From positions 3,410,001-3,474,000 of the forward strand of contig NZ_CP162023.1 of the NCBI RefSeq assembly GCF_041320275.1: a stretch of DNA of 64,000 nucleotides, given 5' to 3'. Each line of letters opens with the position of its first letter. The stretch's first letter is position 1. This DNA is from Mumia sp. Pv4-285 (GTDB lineage: Bacteria; Actinomycetota; Actinomycetes; Propionibacteriales; Nocardioidaceae). This document shows positions 41,909 to 51,640 of the stretch, one piece after another. The position numbers and the translations under genes are program-made. Under the pieces are notes generated by a model. The model saw only the letters and a program-made list of their open reading frames with translations, made no database searches and had not been told where the DNA came from.

Positions 41909-41956
41909 TCGATTCTGTGGGCGCGACGCGCGCCGCACAGATCGCCGCAGCCGCCC

Positions 41957-42243
41957 CGCTGGTCGAGGCGCCCCACCCCACCCCGCTGGTCGAGGCGCCC
42001 CTACCCTCTCCGCTGGTCGAGGCGCGAAGCGATCGAGACCCAGGTCTCGATCCTCCGCTAACGCTCCGGCCTCGACCAACGGAAAGAGGGGGGCCTCGAC
42101 CCACAACGGAACTTCCGCTGGTCGGGGCGCGAAGCGATCGAGACCCAGGTCTCGATCCTCCGCTAACGCTCCGGCCTCGACCAGCGGGGGTGGGGCGGCC
42201 TCGACCAACGGGGGTGGGGCGGTCTCGACCAGCGGGGGTGGGC
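41957..42243. repeat. Array of palindromic GCTGGTCGAGGC-type repeats
   Basis: The interval holds copies of a short element in both orientations. Two 72-base units, 42011-42082 and 42116-42187, differ at only two bases. Each starts CGCTGGTCGAGGCGC (second copy GTCGGGG), carries GAAGCGATCGAGACC, then CAGGTCTCGATC, and closes with GGCCTCGACCA(A/G)CGG. Shorter copies flank them on both sides: CGCTGGTCGAGGCGCCCC before, and CTCGACCA(A/G)CGGGGGTGGGG after. The 31 bases 42010-42040 recur reverse-complemented at 51562-51592. It fills the 41909-42247 gap; no gene or transposase is present. Confidence 0.85.
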
Positions 42244-42247
42244 CACC

Positions 42248-43225
42248 TCAGCGCACGGCGACCGGGTTGACCGGCGCGCCGACCGCTCCGGTGACGGGGA
42301 TCGGTGCAGCGGTCAGCCAGAAGTCGTACACGCCGTCGTCCGCGCAGGCGCCGGCCAGAGCGTCGAGGTCCCACATCTCCCCGATGAACAGCCCGATGTG
42401 CGGGATCGCGACCTGGTGCAGCGGTTGGAAGGCCTCGTCGAACTCGTTCGGACGCACCTCGAAGCCCCAGGTGTCCGTCGCGACCGCCGCGATCTCCGTA
42501 CGGTGCAGCCAGTCGGTGGTCGTGAAGGACAGACCGGGCGCCGCACCGCCGGCGTAGTCACCCCACCCGTCGCGTCGCGCTCGTGCGAGACGTCCGGTGC
42601 GGACGACGACGATGTCGCCGCGTCGCACCTCCGACGTCGGACCCTGCGCCTCGATCGTCGCGGCGAGGTGCTCCTCAGTGATCGCGAAGCCGTCGGGGAG
42701 CTCGCCGTCGGAGCCGATCGCGCGCCCGACGTCCAGCAGCACGCCACGCCCTGCGACGACGTCGGCGACGGTCTCGATCCCGGTCACGCCATCACCGAGG
42801 CTCGTGACCACCTCCCCCGCGGGCCGTCCGTTCCACGCGACGCCGTGATCGAAGATGTGTCCGAGCCCGTCCCACTGGGTCGAGCACTGCAGGGGCATCG
42901 TGACGACGTCGTCCGCGCCACCCAGGCCGTGCGGGAAGCCCTGGATACCGGCGACGGCGTCCGTACCCGTGTCGAGCATCGTGTGGATCGGGTTCGTCCG
43001 GCGCCGCCAGCCCTTCTGCGGACCGTCCATGTCGAAGGACTGCGACAGCGAGTACGACTCCCCCGTCCGAACGAGGCCGGCGGCCCCGCGCCGCGTACCG
43101 GCGTCGAGGAAGTTCATCGTCCCGCGGACGTCGTCGGCGCCCCAGCGCCCCCAGTTGGAGACGCGCTTCGCGGCGGCCGCGATCGCGCCCTCGGGATCGG
43201 TACGGTCGAGCTCCTCGGGCGTCAC
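42248..43225 (-). CDS. Cyclase family (kynurenine formamidase-like) hydrolase
   Basis: This 325-residue protein has RVSNWGRWGADDVRGTMNFLD, MPLQCSTQWDGLGHIFDHGVAWNG (the metal-binding Q.xDxxxH style motif), DIVVVRTGRLA and SFTTTDWLHRTEIAAVATDTWGFEV. The cyclase family (PF04199) uses a metal site to hydrolyse amides or lactones. It is the last gene of the aromatic operon. The GTG start at 43225 overlaps the alpha/beta hydrolase stop (GTGA). Confidence 0.85.
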   Translation of the reverse strand: MTPEELDRTDPEGAIAAAAKRVSNWGRWGADDVRGTMNFLDAGTRRGAAGLVRTGESYSLSQSFDMDGPQKGWRRRTNPIHTMLDTGTDAVAGIQGFPHGLGGADDVVTMPLQCSTQWDGLGHIFDHGVAWNGRPAGEVVTSLGDGVTGIETVADVVAGRGVLLDVGRAIGSDGELPDGFAITEEHLAATIEAQGPTSEVRRGDIVVVRTGRLARARRDGWGDYAGGAAPGLSFTTTDWLHRTEIAAVATDTWGFEVRPNEFDEAFQPLHQVAIPHIGLFIGEMWDLDALAGACADDGVYDFWLTAAPIPVTGAVGAPVNPVAVR

Positions 43226-44391
43226 GCGTCTGCCCCGGCGTCGAGCTCGACGAAGGTGTCGGACACCCAGTCGGCGATGTACGTCGCGACGTGACCGAGG
43301 TGGTCGAGCCCGATGTGCTCGGCGCCGCCCTCCTGCGCGGTGAAGATCCGCAGCTCGCGCTTGGGGCTGTTGACCGCCTGCTCGTACGACCGGTGCGCGT
43401 AGTCGAGCGGGATCTGCCGGTCGTTCTCGCCGTGGGCGATGAGGAACGGCACCGTGATCTTCTCGACGACCCCGTCGAGGTGCACGGCCTCGGCCTTCTC
43501 GATGAAGGTGTCGAGGTCGCTCTCGCCCCACACCCACATGACGTGGTCCCAGTAGTGCGGCACCGGGTTCTCGCCCTCGCGGTTGAGGCGGCGCTTCTGC
43601 ACCGCACCCCAGTTGTGGTTGGCGCCCCACGCGACGCACAGCGCCAGCCGCTTCTCGAACGCGGCGGCGCGCGGCGCGAAGTAGCCGCCGAGCGACCAGC
43701 CGGCCAGCCCGATCCGGTCGGCACGGACGTCGTCGCGTTCCTCGAGGTAGTCGACGCACGCGGCCGCCCACACCTCGGTGTCGACCCGTGCGGTCAGCCC
43801 GCGCAGCCGCAGCGCCTCTCCACTGCCGGGGCAGTCGACCATCAGTGTCGAGATGCCTCGTGCCGCCAGCAGGTGGTGGAACCCGGCGCCGACCATCATC
43901 TCCTTGGTGGAGTCGAGGCCGTTCCACATGATCACGACCGGCGCAGGCGCGCCGTCGGTCGACGCGTCGCAGTAGTACGCCGGGAGGCTGGTGTCGCCGT
44001 ACGGCACCTCGACCTTCGTGGTGCGCGGATCGAGCAGCTCGAAGGACTTCACGAGCAGGTCGACGCTGTGCTGGTACTCCGCGTTGCGCTCTGGCGCGTG
44101 CGCGCTCTGCATCCGCTCGGCCTGCGAGACGTACACGGACGCGCGGAAGTACGCCTGTCCTGCCGTCTCGAGGTGACCTGCCTTCTCCGCCTCGAGCGCC
44201 TGGTCCTCGAGCTGGTCGGCGACGGCGCGCCAGGAGGCCATGAACGCGCTCGTGCCGACGTCGGCACCCTGGGCGGCGAGCTCGCGGATCGGCCGGCAGG
44301 CGCGGTCGACCTCGTCGATCTGCCCGCCGCTGTTGAGCGTCGCGACGACGCCCAGGTTCCAGACGTAGTTGCCGGGGAAGTACTCGAACAT
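43222..44391 (-). CDS. Alpha/beta hydrolase (C-C bond hydrolase, dihydroxypseudooxynicotine hydrolase-like)
   Basis: This 389-residue protein has a helical N-terminal cap (about 1-120) and then an alpha/beta hydrolase core: PVVIMWNGLDSTKEMMVG, nucleophile elbow IGLAGWSLGGYFAPRAAAF, IAHGENDRQIPLDYA with the acid residue, and GGAEHIGLDHLGHVA with the His. This order matches 2,6-dihydroxypseudooxynicotine hydrolase and related ring-fission product hydrolases. It likely cleaves a diketone formed by extradiol ring cleavage. It starts 66 bases after the FAH-family gene. Confidence 0.85.
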   Translation of the reverse strand: MFEYFPGNYVWNLGVVATLNSGGQIDEVDRACRPIRELAAQGADVGTSAFMASWRAVADQLEDQALEAEKAGHLETAGQAYFRASVYVSQAERMQSAHAPERNAEYQHSVDLLVKSFELLDPRTTKVEVPYGDTSLPAYYCDASTDGAPAPVVIMWNGLDSTKEMMVGAGFHHLLAARGISTLMVDCPGSGEALRLRGLTARVDTEVWAAACVDYLEERDDVRADRIGLAGWSLGGYFAPRAAAFEKRLALCVAWGANHNWGAVQKRRLNREGENPVPHYWDHVMWVWGESDLDTFIEKAEAVHLDGVVEKITVPFLIAHGENDRQIPLDYAHRSYEQAVNSPKRELRIFTAQEGGAEHIGLDHLGHVATYIADWVSDTFVELDAGADA

Positions 44392-44456
44392 GGTGGGTCC
44401 TTCGGTTGCGTGCGGTCAGGCAGGGACGGGTGGCTGGTAGGCGGGGCGGAGCGCGG

Positions 44457-45443
44457 TCATGCGTCTGCTCCTCGTGCCCGGGCGGGATCCCGCCGCCGCG
44501 GTGGCGGGATCGGCGGGACCGGCGGCGCGGAGGTCACGCGGTTGGTCAGAGCACCGAGGTGCTCGACCGTGATGGTGACCGTGTCGCCGTCGCGCAGCGG
44601 GGGCGGCTCCTGCCGTCCGTGGCGACCCCACAGCTCCGCCAGGCACCCGCCGTTCCCGACCGTCCCCGAGCCGAGCAGGTCGCCGGGCACCACCGCGCTG
44701 TCGCGCGAGGCGTACGCGATCATCGCCTCGAACGTCCAGCCGGAGTTGGAGAGAAGGTCACGCCCGACCTCCACGCCGTTGACCAGGACCGTGCACCACA
44801 GGTCGAGGAAGCCGTCGTCGTCGCGGTACGGCGCCAACTCGTCGGCGGTGACGATCCACGGGCCGATCGACGTCGCGAAGTCCTTGCCCTTCGCCGGGCC
44901 CAGGCTCACCTGCATCTCCCGACCTTGGAGGTCGCGCGCCGACCAGTCGTTGAAGAGCGTGTACCCGAAGACGTGGGCGGCGGCGTCTTCCACGGTCAGC
45001 GACGTACCCCGCTCCGCGACGACGACGGCGACCTCGAGCTCGAAGTCGCGCGCGATGCTGTGCGCCGGGAAGGCGATGTCGTCGCCCGGGCCGAAGATGC
45101 GGTGCGGGTTGGTGAAGTAGAACGTCGGCGCGTCGTACCACGCGTCGGGCACCCCGGAGGCCCCGTCGATGCTGCGGCGCACACCCTCGACGTGCTCGGC
45201 GAACGCCACGAAGTCACGCACGCTCGCCGGTTCGAGCGGCGCGAGCAGCCGGACTCCGTCGAGCGGGAGTCCCCGTCGTGCGAGCGCGGCATCCCCTGCT
45301 GCGAGGGCGTACGGGAGACCGCGCTCGACGACCTCACGCATCGTGAGCGCGTCGTCGAACGGATGGATCCGCTCGTCGGTGACCACTCCGACTCGTACGG
45401 GCGCCGCCGCACCGTCGACCTCGATGAAGCTGGCGAGTCTCAT
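44457..45443 (-). CDS. Fumarylacetoacetate hydrolase family protein
   Basis: This 328-residue protein has the FAH core: TNPHRIFGPGDDI, FELEVAVVVAERGTSL, FGYTLFNDWSARDLQG, GPAKGKDFATSIGPW, then GDLLGSGTVGNGGCLAELWGR and DGDTVTITVEHLG. The Glu and Asp residues of this scaffold bind a metal. Members act as isomerase/decarboxylase, hydratase or acylpyruvase in ring-cleavage pathways. The VOC gene stop is 7 bases upstream of the ATG. Confidence 0.9.
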   Translation of the reverse strand: MRLASFIEVDGAAAPVRVGVVTDERIHPFDDALTMREVVERGLPYALAAGDAALARRGLPLDGVRLLAPLEPASVRDFVAFAEHVEGVRRSIDGASGVPDAWYDAPTFYFTNPHRIFGPGDDIAFPAHSIARDFELEVAVVVAERGTSLTVEDAAAHVFGYTLFNDWSARDLQGREMQVSLGPAKGKDFATSIGPWIVTADELAPYRDDDGFLDLWCTVLVNGVEVGRDLLSNSGWTFEAMIAYASRDSAVVPGDLLGSGTVGNGGCLAELWGRHGRQEPPPLRDGDTVTITVEHLGALTNRVTSAPPVPPIPPPRRRDPARARGADA

Positions 45444-45449
45444 GCGGGC

Positions 45450-46388
45450 TCAGACCGGCGGCGCGACGAAGACGCCGCGGTCGGGATCGTTGAACGACTG
45501 CTTCGCGACGAACTCGCTCATCGGGTTCGCGGTGCCCCACTGGTCGGTGACCTCGGGGTCGGAGAAGTCGTAGATGTGCGGGTGCCAGCTGTCCTCGTCG
45601 AGGCGTTCGAGCTCGGTCGTGTACTCGAGGGTGTTGCCGTGCGGGTCGAGGAAGTAGCTGAAGGTGTTGTTGCCGGCCATGTGGCGACCAGGCCCCCACA
45701 CCTTCTCGACGCCGGCCCGCAGGAGGCGACCGGTCCCCCGCATGTACTCGTCGATGCCACGCATCTCGAACGACGCATGGTGCAGCGCGACGTGCGGCCC
45801 CCGTGCGACGGCGAAGCTGTGGTGCTGGGGGTTGGTCCGCATGAACCACATGACCTCGCCCATGTGCGGGGAGAACAGGGTGTCGGACAGGGCGAAGCTG
45901 AGGTGCTTCTCGTAGAAGGCGACGGTCTGCTCGGGGTTCGGCGAGTTCACGACGACGTGCGAGAGCTTGACCGGGACGGACTCGCCCTCCTCGACCTTGC
46001 GGTGCTGGCGCACGGCAACGTCGGACGAGACCTCGATCGTCCGGCCGTCGTTGTCGAAGAAGCGGAAGCCGTACCCGCCGCCCGGCGTCTGGAGCTTGTC
46101 GGGCTCGGTGATGAGCGAGACGCCGTCGCGGCCGAGCTGCTCGGCCATCGCGTCCACGTCTGCGGCGTTCGCGGCGCCGAAGGACACGAGGTCGAGCCGC
46201 TTCTCGTCCGCGCGACGGAGTCGTACGGAGTACTGCTCCGGCGAGCCGGCCGCGGCGAGGAACGCGATGCCGTCGTCGCTGGTCTCCGGCGTGAGTCCCC
46301 ACATCGAGGTGTAGAACTCGAGCTGCTGCGCGTAGTCGGGCACGGCGAGGTCGACGTGCCGCAGGTGCGTGATGAGGCGTTCGGTCAT
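45450..46388 (-). CDS. Extradiol ring-cleavage dioxygenase, VOC (type I) family
   Basis: This 312-residue protein has two VOC halves, as in catechol 2,3-dioxygenases. The iron-binding residues are His in LSHVVVNSPNPEQTVAFYEKHL, His in VALHHASFEMRGIDEYM and Glu in NTLEYTTELER. The first half (LITHLRHVDLAVPDYAQQLEFY) is non-metal. Such enzymes cut an aromatic ring beside two hydroxyls. GGGAGAACC precedes the ATG. It is second in the operon after the monooxygenase that would create the diol. Confidence 0.9.
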   Translation of the reverse strand: MTERLITHLRHVDLAVPDYAQQLEFYTSMWGLTPETSDDGIAFLAAAGSPEQYSVRLRRADEKRLDLVSFGAANAADVDAMAEQLGRDGVSLITEPDKLQTPGGGYGFRFFDNDGRTIEVSSDVAVRQHRKVEEGESVPVKLSHVVVNSPNPEQTVAFYEKHLSFALSDTLFSPHMGEVMWFMRTNPQHHSFAVARGPHVALHHASFEMRGIDEYMRGTGRLLRAGVEKVWGPGRHMAGNNTFSYFLDPHGNTLEYTTELERLDEDSWHPHIYDFSDPEVTDQWGTANPMSEFVAKQSFNDPDRGVFVAPPV

Positions 46389-46418
46389 GGAGGTTCTCCC
46401 GGTCTGGGATCGGTGGAG

Positions 46419-47549
46419 TCAGGCGGGGTCGGAGAGCAGTGCGGCGACCTGGCCCATGAGGCCCGGGACGTCACCCTGCTCGCGGTCGAGGAGCCACTGC
46501 CCGAGCTGCACGGATGCCGCGACGACGGCACGTGCGCGCTCGAAGCGGCGCTCGGTGAACGTGGCCCAGAGGTCGCCGTCGAGGCGGTCGCGCGAGGTCA
46601 GCAGCTCGGCGAGCACGACCGCGTCCTCGAGCGCCTGCGCGGCGCCCTGCGCGACCGTGGGCGGGCACGTGTGGGCGGCGTCGCCGATCACGACGACGCG
46701 GCCGCGGTTCCACGGAGCGTCGAGCACGTGCGTCTCGAACCACGTGTAGTTGACCCGCGACGGATCAGTCAGCGACGTACGGATCTCGTCCCACGGTCCG
46801 TGGTAGCCCGAGGCGAGCTCACGCATCACGGCGAGCGAGTCCTCGGGGCTCAGGGCGCTGCGGTCCTGAGCGTCCTCGACGAGGTAGGCGTACATCGAGT
46901 CCTCACCGGTCGGGCAGTAGCCGGCGATGTAGCAGGGGCCGCCGTACACGAGGTCGGTGCGCGTGACCGCCTCCGGCCGCGGGACGAAGGCGCGCCAGAT
47001 CCCCATGCCGGTGCTCGCGGTCTCGAGCTCGATGCCGATCGCGCGGCGCGTCCACGACCGGATGCCGTCCGCGCCGACCACGAGGTCGTACCGGCCGACC
47101 GAGCCGTCGGTGAAGGTCACGTCGACGCCGTCGGTGTCCTGCACGAGGGCGGTGCACGTCGTGCCGAGGCGCAGCTTCGCGCCGGCCTCGACGGCGCGGT
47201 CGACGAGGATCCGGGCCAGGGTCGGGCGATACATGCCGAGGGTCGCGGGCAGATCGGGGCCACCCGTGCGGGCGTCGTCCATCTCGACGATCAGCGTGCC
47301 GTGCGGGTCGGGCGCCCGGAGCCCGAGCGAGTCGAACGGGTAGCCCTCCGCGCGGACCTCGTCCCACACGCCGAGGTCGCGGAGGACGCGCAGCGCGTTG
47401 CCCTGCAGCGTGATGCCGGATCCCAGCGCGCCGATGTCGGGCTTGATCTCCACGAGGTCGACGGAGACACCCTGCTCGGCGAGCAGGATCGCGGTGGCGG
47501 TGCCGGCGGCACCGGCCCCGACGACGAGGGCACTGCTGACTGCGGGCAT
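46419..47549 (-). CDS. FAD-dependent aromatic monooxygenase (PHBH/salicylate hydroxylase-like)
   Basis: This 376-residue flavoprotein has ALVVGAGAAGTATAILLAEQG and VEIKPD at its start, GITLQGNALRVLRDLGVWDEV, YDLVVGADGIRSWTRRAIG (the DG motif) and RVVVIGDAAHTCPPTVAQGAAQALEDAVVLAELL (GD motif). It matches single-component hydroxylases such as salicylate or 6-hydroxynicotinate 3-monooxygenase. It would hydroxylate the ring before the VOC dioxygenase. The start at 47549 opens the FAD loop. It is divergent from a LysR gene. Confidence 0.9.
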   Translation of the reverse strand: MPAVSSALVVGAGAAGTATAILLAEQGVSVDLVEIKPDIGALGSGITLQGNALRVLRDLGVWDEVRAEGYPFDSLGLRAPDPHGTLIVEMDDARTGGPDLPATLGMYRPTLARILVDRAVEAGAKLRLGTTCTALVQDTDGVDVTFTDGSVGRYDLVVGADGIRSWTRRAIGIELETASTGMGIWRAFVPRPEAVTRTDLVYGGPCYIAGYCPTGEDSMYAYLVEDAQDRSALSPEDSLAVMRELASGYHGPWDEIRTSLTDPSRVNYTWFETHVLDAPWNRGRVVVIGDAAHTCPPTVAQGAAQALEDAVVLAELLTSRDRLDGDLWATFTERRFERARAVVAASVQLGQWLLDREQGDVPGLMGQVAALLSDPA

Positions 47550-47667
47550 GGAACGGCTCCTGCGAGGTTGATGACCGGCTGTGACCACGACCACTCTGCG
47601 GTCTGCGTCACTATTTGGGAACCGCCACTTGGCTATCCCCACCATCAGCGAGGTTTATGCTCGCGTC

Positions 47668-48612
47668 ATGGCCGGCCAGAACCTGCGCAATCTCGACCTG
47701 AATCTGCTGCTCACGCTCGATGCGCTCCTCCAGGAGCGCAACGTCACCCGCGCGGCGGAGCGGCTCGGACTGAGCCAGCCCGCCGTGTCGGCCGCTCTCG
47801 GGCGCCTTCGCCGCCACTTCAACGACGAGCTGCTGCAGCGTACGGGCAACAAGTACTCGCTCAGCCCGCTCGCGGAGCAGCTCGCCGGACGGACCGCCAC
47901 GGCCCTGTCAGGCGTCCAGCGTGTCTTCGACGCCTCCTCCGACTTCGACCCGGCGACGGCCGACCGCGAGTTCACGCTGATGGTCTCGGACTACGGCGCC
48001 ACGATCCTCGGCGACCACCTCGCGACCGCCGTCGCTCGACAGGCACCCGGCGTACGCCTGCGGTTCGTCCCCAACACCCCGGCCGCGGTCGACCACGCTC
48101 GCGAGTCGCTGCGGACGCTCGACGGCATCGTCCTGCCGCACGGCTTCATCAGCGACATCCCTGCCGTCGACCTGTACGAGGACACCTGGGTGTGCGTCGT
48201 GTCCGAGGACAACGACCGGGTCGGCGAGACGCTCACGCTCGAGGACGTCGCCGCGCTGCCGTGGGTCGCGACGTACAACCTGCCCACCGCGTTCGCACCG
48301 GCTGCGCGGCAGCTTCGGATGATCGGGGTGGAGCCCGACGTGCACATCGTGGTCGACAGCTTCCTCGCGATCCCGTTCCTCGTCGCCGGGACGAACCGTG
48401 TCGCGGTGCTCCAGGCGCAGCTCGCCCATCGGCTCGCGGCCGCCGCCGGCATCCGTGTCTTCGCGTGCCCCTGGGACGTCGTGCCGCTCAAGGAGGCGTT
48501 CTGGTGGCACCCGCAGTTCCGGTCCGACCCGGCACACCAGTGGCTGCGCCAGATTCTTCGGGACGTCGGCGACGACATCGGACGCCGCAGCATCGACGCT
48601 ATGGATACCTGA
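47668..48612 (+). CDS. LysR family transcriptional regulator
   Basis: This 314-residue protein begins NLRNLDLNLLLTLDALLQERNVTRAAERLGLSQPAVSAALGRL in pieces, the LysR winged helix, and has a periplasmic-binding-like effector domain (DREFTLMVSDYGATILGDHL, LPWVATYNLPTAFAPAA). It resembles NodD/PcpR-type regulators. It is divergent from the monooxygenase, with a 118-base interval that should carry its T-N11-A sites. The start at 47668 is used since upstream in-frame codons show no homology. It likely activates the aromatic operon. Confidence 0.88.
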   Translation: MAGQNLRNLDLNLLLTLDALLQERNVTRAAERLGLSQPAVSAALGRLRRHFNDELLQRTGNKYSLSPLAEQLAGRTATALSGVQRVFDASSDFDPATADREFTLMVSDYGATILGDHLATAVARQAPGVRLRFVPNTPAAVDHARESLRTLDGIVLPHGFISDIPAVDLYEDTWVCVVSEDNDRVGETLTLEDVAALPWVATYNLPTAFAPAARQLRMIGVEPDVHIVVDSFLAIPFLVAGTNRVAVLQAQLAHRLAAAAGIRVFACPWDVVPLKEAFWWHPQFRSDPAHQWLRQILRDVGDDIGRRSIDAMDT

Positions 48613-48663: not shown

Positions 48664-48681
48664 TCGTGACGCCCGTCACAC
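48664..48681. promoter_or_regulatory. CRP/GlxR-like site upstream of the MFS gene
   Basis: GTGA-CGCCCG-TCAC (48666-48679) followed by AC, with T-C flanks, forms the symmetric GTGA-N6-TCAC core of a CRP-type site, 45 bases before the transporter start. The left arm has one base off the full GTGTGA. Confidence 0.5.
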
Positions 48682-48725
48682 GGCGCGCACCTCCGCTGCG
48701 CCGCTCCCTGGACCTGGAGCACACG

Positions 48726-49955
48726 ATGACAGACACCGGCACCGGCCTCGCCGGAAGTGCGAACCCGCCAGCCCCTCCCCGGTCGGCCGGTCGCCGGCAG
48801 GGCCTCCTCCTCATGCTGATCAGCTGCCTCCCCGTGCTCGGTTCGGTGCTCCTCGCCCCGGTCCTGCCGCGCATGCAGGACCATTTCGAGGCGACGGCAG
48901 GCGCTGACGCGCTCGTGCCGATCACTCTCACGGTGCCCGCCCTGATGATCGGAGTGCTCGCACCGTTCGCCGGCAGGTTCGTCGACCGCTTCGGACGCAA
49001 GCAGCTCCTGGTCGGCGGCCTCGTCGTCTACGCATTGTTCGGCACCGCGCCGCTGTGGCTCGAGCCGCTCCCGGCGATCGTGCTGAGCCGCGCCGGCGTC
49101 GGCGTCGCCGAAGCCGCGATCATGACGTGCTGCACGACGCTGATCGCCGACTACTTCTCCGGGCGCGAGCGCGACCGCTGGCTGGGTCTGCAGACGGTGT
49201 TCACCGCACTCGCCGCCACCGTGTTCTTCGCCGCAGGCGGTGCGCTCGGGTCGTTCGGCTGGCGGACCCCGTTCTGGCTGTACGCGTCCGGCCTCGTCTT
49301 CGCCGTGCTCGCCGCGACCGTCCTGTGGCAGCCGCACGCACGTACGGAGTCGCCGGCGGCGCAGGCGCACGCGCTTCCGCCGATCCCGTGGCGGACCCTC
49401 CGCGCCCCGATCCTCTTCACCCTCGTCGGCGGCGTCGTGTTCTACACCCCGATCGTCGAGCTCTCGTACGCCCTCGACGACCTCGGCGTCGAGTCCACCG
49501 CCGCGATCGGTGCGATCAGCGCGATCGCGTCGGCGGCGACGGCGACCGGCGCCTTCGTGTTCGGGCGGGTGTCGGGCCGCGGGACCGCGACGCTCCTCCC
49601 CATCGCCGCGGGTCTCGCCGGCACCGGCATCGTCGTGATCGGCATCGCGGGATCGGTGGCGGTCACGGCCATCGGCGCGGTCGTCGCCTCCGCGGGCACG
49701 GGGCTCATGCTTCCGACGCTGGTCACGTGGGCGATCTCGTCGCTGCCCTTCGAGCTGCGGGGCCGCGGCACGGGACTCTGGACCGCCGCCTTCTTCATCG
49801 GCCAGTTCTTCTGCCCGCTCATCGTCGTCGGGCTCACCGCTGCGCTCGGCGGGCTCGGGGGTGCGCTCGTCGTGGTCGGCATCGCCTCCCTGGTGATGGC
49901 GGTCGCCGCGAAGACCCTCCTTCCCCGCACCCCGAAGGTGCGCGTCCATGTGTGA
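48726..49955 (+). CDS. MFS transporter (aromatic acid or drug type)
   Basis: This 409-residue protein has 12 predicted helices with motif A (AGRFVDRFGRKQLLVGG), SRAGVGVAEAAIMTCCTTLIADYFSGRERDRWLG and a symmetric second half. It resembles 12-helix MFS members near aromatic catabolism genes, so uptake of the pathway substrate is possible; efflux cannot be excluded. The next gene starts inside its last codons (ATG 49948). A CTGGAG site precedes ATG 48726. Confidence 0.85.
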   Translation: MTDTGTGLAGSANPPAPPRSAGRRQGLLLMLISCLPVLGSVLLAPVLPRMQDHFEATAGADALVPITLTVPALMIGVLAPFAGRFVDRFGRKQLLVGGLVVYALFGTAPLWLEPLPAIVLSRAGVGVAEAAIMTCCTTLIADYFSGRERDRWLGLQTVFTALAATVFFAAGGALGSFGWRTPFWLYASGLVFAVLAATVLWQPHARTESPAAQAHALPPIPWRTLRAPILFTLVGGVVFYTPIVELSYALDDLGVESTAAIGAISAIASAATATGAFVFGRVSGRGTATLLPIAAGLAGTGIVVIGIAGSVAVTAIGAVVASAGTGLMLPTLVTWAISSLPFELRGRGTGLWTAAFFIGQFFCPLIVVGLTAALGGLGGALVVVGIASLVMAVAAKTLLPRTPKVRVHV

Positions 49956-51132
49956 CGTCATCTCGAACGCCCTGTCGTCCGTGCCGGACCCGGGACGACG
50001 CCGCTTCCTGAAGGTCCTCGGCGCGTCCGCCGCCGTCGGCGCGCTCGCCACCGCCGTACCGTCTGCCGCCGCAGGGGCGCCCGCGCACCGGCGAGGTCGT
50101 CCGGCTCGCACGCGCCTGGTGCTTCTCGGCACCGCCGGCGGACCGGCGTACGTCGACGCGACGCGCGCGGGCGTCTCGACCGCCGTCGTGTTCGAGGACC
50201 GCGTGTACGTCGTGGACCTTGGGCTCGGCGCCTTCCAACGTCTTGCGCAGAGCGGACTCGGACCGGACAACGGCTTGGGATCGGCCCTCACCAACGTGCG
50301 CGGCGTGTTCTTCACCCACCTGCACAGCGACCACACGGTCGACTGGCCCGGCACCTACGTGACGGGCAGCATGAACGCGACAGGCAGGACCGACGGCGCG
50401 ATCCAGGTGTTCGGCCCGGGCCGCCGCGACACGCTTCCGCGCGTGTTCCCGCCGAACCGGCCGGCGCCCGCGCTCGTCTCGCCCGACGACCCGACGCCGG
50501 GGATCAGCGGCATGACCGGCTACCTGCGCCAGGCGTTCGCGCAGGACGTGAACGACCGGCTTCGAGACAGCAACTTCACCGCTCCGGACGCGATGTTCGA
50601 CGTCCACGACATCGATCTGAGCGGCGTCTGGACGGTGGACCCGCTCGGCAAGCCACCGCGCCTCGACGCGCCGATCCCCGTGTGGGAGGACGGCGACGTC
50701 CGCATCACGGCCACGCTCGTCGATCACCACCCGACGGCCCCTGCGTTCGCGTACCGGTTCGACACCCCGGACGGCTCGGTGGTCGTCTCCGGTGACACCA
50801 CCGTGAGCGAGAACCTCATCGACCTCGCGCAGGACTGCGACTACCTGGTCCACGAAGTCATCGACCCGGTCTTCGTCGACGACCTGACCGCGGCGCTCCC
50901 CGCTGACGTGGGCCCCGCTGTCCGCGAGCACCTCCTCGGCGCGCACACCACGATCGAGCAGGTCGGCCGCGACGTCGCGGAGCCTGCCGGGGCGAAGAAC
51001 CTCGTCCTCTCGCACATGGTGCCGGGCGCCAATCCGATGTCGCGGTGGCGGAAGGCGCAGCGTGGCTACTCGGGACGGCTCGTCGTCGGTGAGGACCTCA
51101 TGGAGCTGCCGGTCGGTCGACGACGCGCCTAG
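49948..51132 (+). CDS. Tat-exported MBL-fold hydrolase (arylsulfatase/RNase Z-like fold)
   Basis: This 394-residue protein starts with a twin-arginine signal (PGRRRFLKVLGASAAVGALAT). The MBL zinc motif FFTHLHSDHTVDWPGTYV, DHHPTAPAFAYRF and VVSGDTTVSENLIDLA are present, with the final LVLSHMVPG. The layout is like AtsA/RNase Z-type proteins. It is exported folded. The start overlaps the MFS gene by 8 bases, so it belongs with the transporter and may act on the imported substrate outside the cell, for example on an ester. Substrate unknown. Confidence 0.85.
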   Translation: MCDVISNALSSVPDPGRRRFLKVLGASAAVGALATAVPSAAAGAPAHRRGRPARTRLVLLGTAGGPAYVDATRAGVSTAVVFEDRVYVVDLGLGAFQRLAQSGLGPDNGLGSALTNVRGVFFTHLHSDHTVDWPGTYVTGSMNATGRTDGAIQVFGPGRRDTLPRVFPPNRPAPALVSPDDPTPGISGMTGYLRQAFAQDVNDRLRDSNFTAPDAMFDVHDIDLSGVWTVDPLGKPPRLDAPIPVWEDGDVRITATLVDHHPTAPAFAYRFDTPDGSVVVSGDTTVSENLIDLAQDCDYLVHEVIDPVFVDDLTAALPADVGPAVREHLLGAHTTIEQVGRDVAEPAGAKNLVLSHMVPGANPMSRWRKAQRGYSGRLVVGEDLMELPVGRRRA

Positions 51133-51561: not shown

Positions 51562-51640
51562 GGTCTCGATCGCTTCGCGCCTCGACCAGCGGAGGGTGAA
51601 GCGCCTCGACCAGCGGAGGGTGAAGCGCCTCGACAAGCGG
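51562..51640. repeat. Second copy of the GCTGGTCGAGGC-type repeat with 24-base tandem units
   Basis: Bases 51562-51592 are the exact reverse complement of 42010-42040 (31 bases identical). The following 24-base unit GCGCCTCGACCAGCGGAGGG plus TGAA occurs at 51577-51600 and 51601-51624, and a third partial copy (with CAAGCGG) ends at 51640. It lies between the GNAT gene and the TetR stop. Confidence 0.85.

Follow-up and report, generated by a model that had tools for sequence, protein, structure and literature searches.

Within a window of 64,000 nucleotides from the genome of Mumia sp. Pv4-285 (contig NZ_CP162023.1, positions 3,410,001 to 3,474,000), we studied five adjacent minus-strand genes that encode an FAD-dependent hydroxylase (FMO), an extradiol dioxygenase of the VOC superfamily (VOC), a fumarylacetoacetase-family hydrolase (FAH), an alpha/beta C-C hydrolase (ABH) and a cyclase-family protein (CYC). 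Families were assigned by sequence searches of NCBIfam, Pfam and the PDB (Table 1). All five frames are intact and free of internal stops, and spacers of 30 bp (FMO-VOC), 6 bp (VOC-FAH) and 65 bp (FAH-ABH, the largest gap) are followed by a 4-bp overlap of ABH and CYC. An initial annotation made from the sequence alone had described one tightly packed operon for catabolic ring cleavage beyond a simple catechol pathway, and on both counts it was borne out, although its interval left out the divergent LysR gene and the MFS and MBL genes behind it.

Table 1. Genes and regulatory region of the ring-cleavage locus, in window coordinates.
Feature	Position	Strand	Description
FMO	46419..47549	-	FdeE-type aromatic hydroxylase of group A, FAD-dependent; 376 aa; ATG start
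VOC	45450..46388	-	Extradiol ring-cleavage dioxygenase of the VOC superfamily; 3b59 lineage rather than FdeC lineage; 312 aa; ATG start
FAH	44457..45443	-	Fumarylacetoacetase-family hydrolase, proposed acylpyruvate type; 328 aa; ATG start
ABH	43222..44391	-	Alpha/beta C-C hydrolase, FdeB-type, kin of 2,6-dihydroxypseudooxynicotine hydrolase; 389 aa; ATG start
CYC	42248..43225	-	PF04199 cyclase-family protein, STQWD type; 325 aa; GTG start
Divergent intergenic region	47550..47667		118 bp; presumed target of the regulator, judged by position
LysR	47668..48612	+	LysR-type regulator, FdeR-like, divergent from FMO; HTH_1 and LysR_substrate domains; 314 aa
MFS	48666..49955	+	MFS transporter (MFS_1, PF07690), presumed substrate carrier; predicted GTG start
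MBL	49948..51132	+	MBL-fold hydrolase (Lactamase_B); 8-bp overlap with the MFS gene; uncertain whether it belongs to the system

We consider this operon to be, with a probability of about two thirds, an actinomycete variant of the fde-type pathway for meta-cleavage of the flavonoid A ring, and on our best reading of the sequences a non-orthologous VOC lineage would stand in for the pair of the dioxygenase FdeC and the Rieske protein FdeD. The fde operon runs from A to J and is represented here by locus L150 of genome G325, which was obtained by searching 97 genomes of the family to which Collimonas belongs. Its order is a divergent LysR gene and a Phenol_MetA_deg protein, then ABH, VOC, Rieske protein, FMO, MFS, PF04199 cyclase, cupin, FAH and epimerase, with the letters B and F to J given to its genes by position. 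In the published descriptions, FdeC is the dioxygenase of fde (PMC11069340), and FdeE acts together with the Rieske protein FdeD (PMC8552027). Proteins of Variovorax sp. YR216 served as stand-ins for the hydroxylase IfcA and the dioxygenase IfcB of the isoflavone cluster ifc.

Two of the five enzymes, FMO and ABH, are counterparts of the L150 proteins, and the regulator may be one too, less surely, at 34% identity to the FdeR-like protein over 303 aa. FMO carries the Pfam domain FAD_binding_3, scores above the cut-off of the NCBIfam subfamily PRK06847 and is 39% identical to the FdeE-like protein over 341 aa (blastp). Queried in the G325 genome it finds the FdeE-like protein first (208 bits; next 86), and the FdeE-like protein queried in the genome of the window finds FMO first (196 bits; next 90), which makes the two reciprocal best matches and hence counterparts. 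A tree of the hydroxylases, rebuilt after dropping three long-branch rows (the MhpA-like outgroup, L140 FMOb1 and L047 FMO2), places the protein in an actinobacterial clade of 15 rows with a support of 100/100; 11 named loci were sampled for it, with four (L053, L055, L062 and L068) lacking a row, and nine for the tree of ABH, with three (L062, L068 and L120) lacking one. ABH is 51% identical to the FdeB-like protein over 380 aa and the only match of that protein in the genome of the window (417 bits). Its residues S233 and H359 are invariant over 24 aligned family rows.

The initial annotation had instead drawn from the likeness of ABH to dihydroxypseudooxynicotine hydrolase, and from a hydrolase that looked like a formamidase, an N-heterocyclic or amide-bearing aromatic substrate, and the corresponding explanation of the operon would be a pathway for hydroxypyridines or indoles that uses a C-C hydrolase of the nicotine type and a formamidase. 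The likeness as such holds, for the best PDB match of ABH is indeed 2,6-dihydroxypseudooxynicotine hydrolase (2jbw, E 5e-25), and FMO matches best in the PDB to 6-hydroxynicotinate 3-monooxygenase (E 8.5e-24), with methyl-hydroxypyridine-carboxylate oxygenase lower in the same list (E 4.9e-22). However, the FdeB-like protein is a much closer relative of ABH (387 bits with blastp versus 91 bits to the nicotine enzyme with phmmer, the programs being different) and itself has 2jbw as its best PDB match, and the nearest relatives of ABH that we found are those of actinobacterial and fde-like clusters rather than nicotine-pathway enzymes. FMO likewise reaches 87 bits with 6-hydroxynicotinate 3-monooxygenase but 193 and 208 bits with the FdeE-like protein, again from different programs. 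No amidase, deaminase or molybdenum hydroxylase is found among the eight annotated genes, and the fde pathway for naringenin has the same enzyme families. With the evidence from the cyclase that follows, we regard a substrate of this kind as improbable.

CYC belongs to PF04199 (E 4e-20; PDB 5ibz, E 1e-55), and kynurenine formamidase (KynB) is a protein that bears the motif HxGTHxDxPxH. This metal motif was found in none of nine aligned sequences that include the window cyclase. The window protein has CSTQWDGLGH where the FdeG-like protein has HNGTHLDAPWH, and the form HxGTHxDAxxH is present in the FdeG-like protein as well as in two other PF04199 proteins of the window's genome. Because the window protein has CSTQWDGLGH in place of HxGTHxDAxxH, its resemblance to a formamidase gives no evidence for an amide, and the KynB reading was rejected.

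VOC, FAH and CYC share only the family with the corresponding L150 proteins and belong to different lineages. VOC is a Glyoxalase-domain protein (PF00903) with PDB entry 3b59 as a match at E 1e-72, remains below the NCBIfam cut-offs for catechol 2,3-dioxygenase (111 bits of 320) and HpaD (123 bits of 321) and has its nearest named relatives in Nonomuraea, Streptomyces and Rhodococcus. Across 15 aligned proteins, the FdeC- and IfcB-like ones included, its residues H144, H204 and E255, which we take to be the iron ligands, are invariant. FAH (PF01557, E 2e-51) is 38% identical over 245 aa to the FAH encoded near the IfcA-like gene of Variovorax sp. YR216.

How the two dioxygenase lineages are associated with the other genes was compared between 31 loci with a VOC of the window type (the window, 22 and 8 more) and 80 FdeC-type loci, the best 80 of 396 relatives in named genomes retrieved with a dioxygenase query from an fde-like cluster on a Massilia plasmid; Herbaspirillum is not named among these best 80. 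Counting matches at E 1e-8 at any place in the stretch, the FdeC-type loci contain ABH in 72, FMO in 69 and both in 62 cases, besides LysR (60/80), FAH (47/80) and MFS (26/80). An FdeD-like Rieske protein accompanies FdeC-type dioxygenases in 74 of 80 loci versus none of the 31 with the window-type VOC, numbers that describe a pattern rather than a tally of independent events, given that the 31 loci are related to each other and of unequal length. Five of them (L034, L035, L036, L043 and L051) lack the operon in question, and L034 has the annotated ferredoxin gene of a ring-hydroxylating dioxygenase.

Plasmids of Sphingomonadales bridge the window operon and fde, since they combine FdeB-, FdeE-, FdeG- and FdeI-like genes with a VOC of the window type. 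Among ten such loci, chosen from the better-scoring rows of the VOC searches, eight (L037, L179 and L181 to L186) have ABH directly behind VOC, with 46-51% identity to the window's ABH and 52-56% to the FdeB-like protein, while L042 and L180 have no close ABH. An FdeG-like cyclase (67-76%) occurs in six of the ten and an FdeI-like FAH (50-55%) in seven. In these clusters the window-type VOC occupies the place of FdeC. On the Sphingobium sp. TomTYG65 plasmid an annotated beta-glucosidase gene (L179:16298-18652) is a neighbour of the FMO-VOC-ABH-cyclase-FAH run, an arrangement that would fit the use of substrate glycosides.

We infer the substrate class, the bond that is cleaved and every step after the dioxygenase. 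FMO would hydroxylate C8 of the 7-hydroxylated A ring of a flavonoid-type compound (chromone or chromanone) to give a 7,8-catechol, just as C8 hydroxylation has been described for FdeE, which accepts flavanones, flavones, isoflavones and flavonols (PMC11303751), and for IfcA (PMC11069340). VOC would then cleave the catechol ring, with the C8-C8a bond as the most likely site, so that the C ring remains as a pyranone or lactone bearing an acylpyruvate-like side chain. Recombinant IfcB formed a product peak from 8-hydroxydaidzein with substrate left over, that is, by partial conversion, and a later intermediate of ifc is 2-hydroxy-5-(4-hydroxyphenyl)-4H-pyran-4-one (PMC11069340), a structure that points to C8-C8a cleavage and the loss of the four carbons C5 to C8. 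If a 5-hydroxyl group is present, the opened chain should be an acylpyruvate, which would suit FAH together with a C-C hydrolase. FAH and ABH may hydrolyse C-C bonds of the side chain, and CYC, perhaps along with the MBL protein, might open the lactone or an enol ester, with LysR sensing the substrate and the MFS protein transporting it.

The operon is sporadic in actinobacteria, because ABH (E <= 1e-60) occurs in just 13 of 393 other genomes drawn from the class and is absent from both same-genus genomes listed; close relatives of VOC (71-83% identity) were found in 5 of 295 other genomes drawn from the phylum. It is nevertheless no chance assembly, because a genome of the same class (G050, locus L046) has all five genes together at 67-84% identity with a single dehydrogenase gene interposed. 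According to a six-frame recheck, all five enzymes are present at 45% identity or more in 7 of the 13 ABH stretches (L046, L165, L166, L169, L171, L172 and L173). Four enzymes occur in L167, with FAH at only 28%, and in L174, with VOC at only 23%. L170 has ABH, FAH and VOC within the 15 kb fetched, in L175 ABH, CYC and FMO (37-50%) are accompanied by only a weak VOC, L176 has ABH (39%) and CYC (53%), and L168 has ABH plus a 31% MBL homologue. An extra gene of 242-266 aa directly precedes ABH in five of the 13 (L046, L165, L166, L167 and L169) and encodes a short-chain dehydrogenase according to Pfam (L046, L165) or a tblastn match (L166, L167, L169).

A second actinobacterial architecture, FAH2-CYC-FMO-X-VOC-FAH, was found in six loci (L044, L045 and L047 to L050), where L044 and L047 encode an Amidohydro_2 protein at X, which was judged from size and position elsewhere. 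Its amidohydrolase in place of a C-C hydrolase would point to a different substrate subclass. The Novosphingobium EMRT-2 plasmid locus L180 has VOC, FMO, two FAHs, an amidohydrolase and an MBL protein together.

That two architectures differ in their hydrolases also suggests different substrates in the sense of a broader alternative, namely that the same chemistry acts on another fused or acylated polyphenol with a resorcinol or phloroglucinol ring such as a coumarin, a xanthone, an acylphloroglucinol or a polyketide. FMO is just 39% identical to the FdeE-like protein, ABH also resembles Ayg1-type and AntI proteins, which act on polyketides, and gentisate-pathway-like genes adjoin the operon in L045, L046 and L049. 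The co-occurrence that we found is, however, with clusters of the fde and ifc type, and genes of the gentisate kind do not accompany the operon in general: Of 18 genomes (the window's and 17 with ABH or VOC), 6 gave a match for gentisate 1,2-dioxygenase, two of them near the operon (G107 and G050), and the window's own genome gave none, so that this link was dropped as a hint to the product. We therefore view a polyphenol other than a flavonoid as a rather unlikely substrate. The genes next to the operon in L046 (12593-17202) and L045 (13494-16668) are 3-hydroxybenzoate 6-hydroxylase-like, gentisate-dioxygenase-like and FAH genes, and the two loci come from different families.

Several observations weigh against an fde-type flavonoid pathway, beginning with the enzymes themselves. 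VOC is only 28% identical to the FdeC-like protein over 215 aa and of a different lineage despite the same H/H/E residues, FAH reaches merely 30% to the FdeI-like protein over 220 aa, and CYC gives no BLAST match to the FdeG-like protein even though both belong to PF04199. Searches of the window at E 1e-3 gave no match for FdeA, FdeD, FdeH or FdeJ, while the FdeC-type loci contain the window cyclase in none and the MBL protein in one of 80 cases. The deep order of the FMO tree relative to the FdeE and IfcA groups is unsettled, leaving undecided which of them is nearer, and ABH was not found in the fetched stretches of the six second-architecture loci that keep CYC, FMO, VOC and FAH. That L150 stands for fde, moreover, is based on its layout and on the agreement of two identity values with published ones: Against L150 the YR216 proteins show 35-36% (FMO) and 65% (VOC) identity, and the published values are 36.3% for IfcA-FdeE and 65.8% for IfcB-FdeC (PMC11069340). 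In the isoflavone strain V35 a knock-out of its own alpha/beta hydrolase left daidzein degradation unaffected, and homologues of IfcA were found by the authors of that study using BLASTP in Proteobacteria only (PMC11069340). Since daidzein has no 5-hydroxyl group, ABH may play its part with A rings that are 5-hydroxylated or at a later stage.

The dioxygenase lineage also occurs in other settings that count against this assignment. On the Rhodococcus sp. USK13 plasmid, a 69% VOC lies behind a ring-hydroxylating dioxygenase set (L034:6621-12939), so that the lineage serves other aromatic pathways too, and on a plasmid of Streptomyces angustmyceticus relatives of FMO (36%) and VOC (63%) lie near polyketide synthase genes (L036:8814-20924). 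An acyltransferase-domain gene and a type I polyketide synthase gene lie about 2 kb and 6 kb, respectively, from this pair, which could suggest a biosynthetic or tailoring cluster instead of catabolism. A biosynthetic core enzyme is, however, not found among the eight annotated window genes, of which only VOC and FMO match in the Streptomyces stretch. An extradiol dioxygenase, an FAH, a C-C hydrolase, a LysR regulator and an MFS transporter are catabolic content, and we judge a biosynthetic role to be highly improbable.

Gene set, homology, gene order and conserved residues can be read directly from the sequence data, and they place the operon close to fde without making it a strict member. 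In that narrow sense it falls outside fde, given the other lineage of its dioxygenase and the lack of FdeD, FdeH and FdeJ matches in the window, while the statement that it works like fde is well supported. The initial annotation had recognised no standard pathway and had named close identity of the whole operon to a known actinobacterial pathway as the finding that would refute its view. No such close identity was seen. A described pathway with the same families does exist in fde, but those window proteins that match the fde-layout cluster do so at 28-51% identity, and an open-access literature search, which is weak evidence of absence, brought up no described actinobacterial counterpart.

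Among the divergently transcribed genes, the MFS protein is 41% identical to that of a Sphingomonas R1 cluster and has homologues of 51-59% in L045, L049, L172 and L174 but none in the other 16 of 20 related stretches tested. Homologues of the MBL protein (28-33%) are found in the Variovorax YR216 and Novosphingobium resinovorum pHR1a clusters, yet in just one of the 20 related stretches (L168), which counts against its membership in the system and, to that extent, against the fde-type assignment. In the 118-bp gap between FMO and LysR, scans detected no T-N11-A dyad and neither a sigma-70 nor a terminator consensus; over nine intergenic regions, the T-N11-A scan gave one weak box each in L048 and L049 only. 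Short tandem blocks of CTCGACCAGCGG lie on both sides of the region (41954-42242 and 51577-51640). The window has 7 copies of CTCGACCAGCGG versus 0.06 expected, and across the genome a 14-mer that contains this core is present 121 times versus 4 for a control, forming an unexplained dispersed repeat family.

More generally, we tentatively propose, at slightly less than even odds, a second, so far unrecognised branch of flavonoid-type A-ring meta-cleavage in actinobacteria and Sphingomonadales, in which a VOC of another lineage that works without a Rieske protein would replace FdeC and FdeD while hydroxylase and C-C hydrolase are retained. If this is true, the partner of FdeD would be the dioxygenase FdeC, whose iron it might for example hold in the reduced state, rather than the hydroxylase FdeE, contrary to the description of FdeED as a hydroxylating complex (PMC8552027); the co-occurrence pattern of FdeD makes the role of this Rieske protein directly testable. 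An fde-type assignment would also give a scattered actinobacterial operon a concrete substrate hypothesis, extend oxidative degradation of the flavonoid A ring beyond Proteobacteria and make the hydroxylases candidate biocatalysts for C8 hydroxylation.

Among known systems, fde as represented by L150 shares with the window FMO, an extradiol VOC, an alpha/beta hydrolase, a PF04199 cyclase, FAH, MFS and a divergent LysR gene but differs in the lineages of dioxygenase and cyclase and in gene order, and the window's host is actinobacterial. The ifc cluster of Variovorax V35, which its authors likened to the naringenin operon fde of Herbaspirillum seropedicae, encodes the FAD monooxygenase IfcA, the glyoxalase-type IfcB, the cupins IfcD1 and IfcD2 and an alpha/beta hydrolase that shares 25% identity with the enzyme of the nicotine pathway (PMC11069340). 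As published it has in common with the window the FMO, a glyoxalase-type dioxygenase and a nicotine-enzyme-like alpha/beta hydrolase. The YR216 stand-in further resembles the window in an FAH (38%) and an MBL protein (32%), whereas its FMO and VOC share only 33% and 28% identity with those of the window and the stretch fetched showed no ABH. The nicotine enzyme 2jbw belongs to the same hydrolase family as the window's ABH but is much less similar to it than the FdeB-like protein and comes from another neighbourhood. Other bacterial routes differ: The quercetinase of Streptomyces cleaves the C ring (PMC11069340), and a paper from 2025 about puerarin and a soil bacterium describes deglycosylation, without mention of a monooxygenase or dioxygenase. 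The Sphingomonadales plasmid clusters, for instance those of Novosphingobium resinovorum pHR1a and Sphingobium yanoikuyae pKN1, which are arranged as a run of FMO, VOC, ABH, (hypothetical), cyclase and FAH, resemble the window in the lineage of their VOC (39-44% identity) and in having no FdeD-like protein, and they differ from it by an FdeG-type cyclase, TonB receptors and, in some, cupin and epimerase genes.

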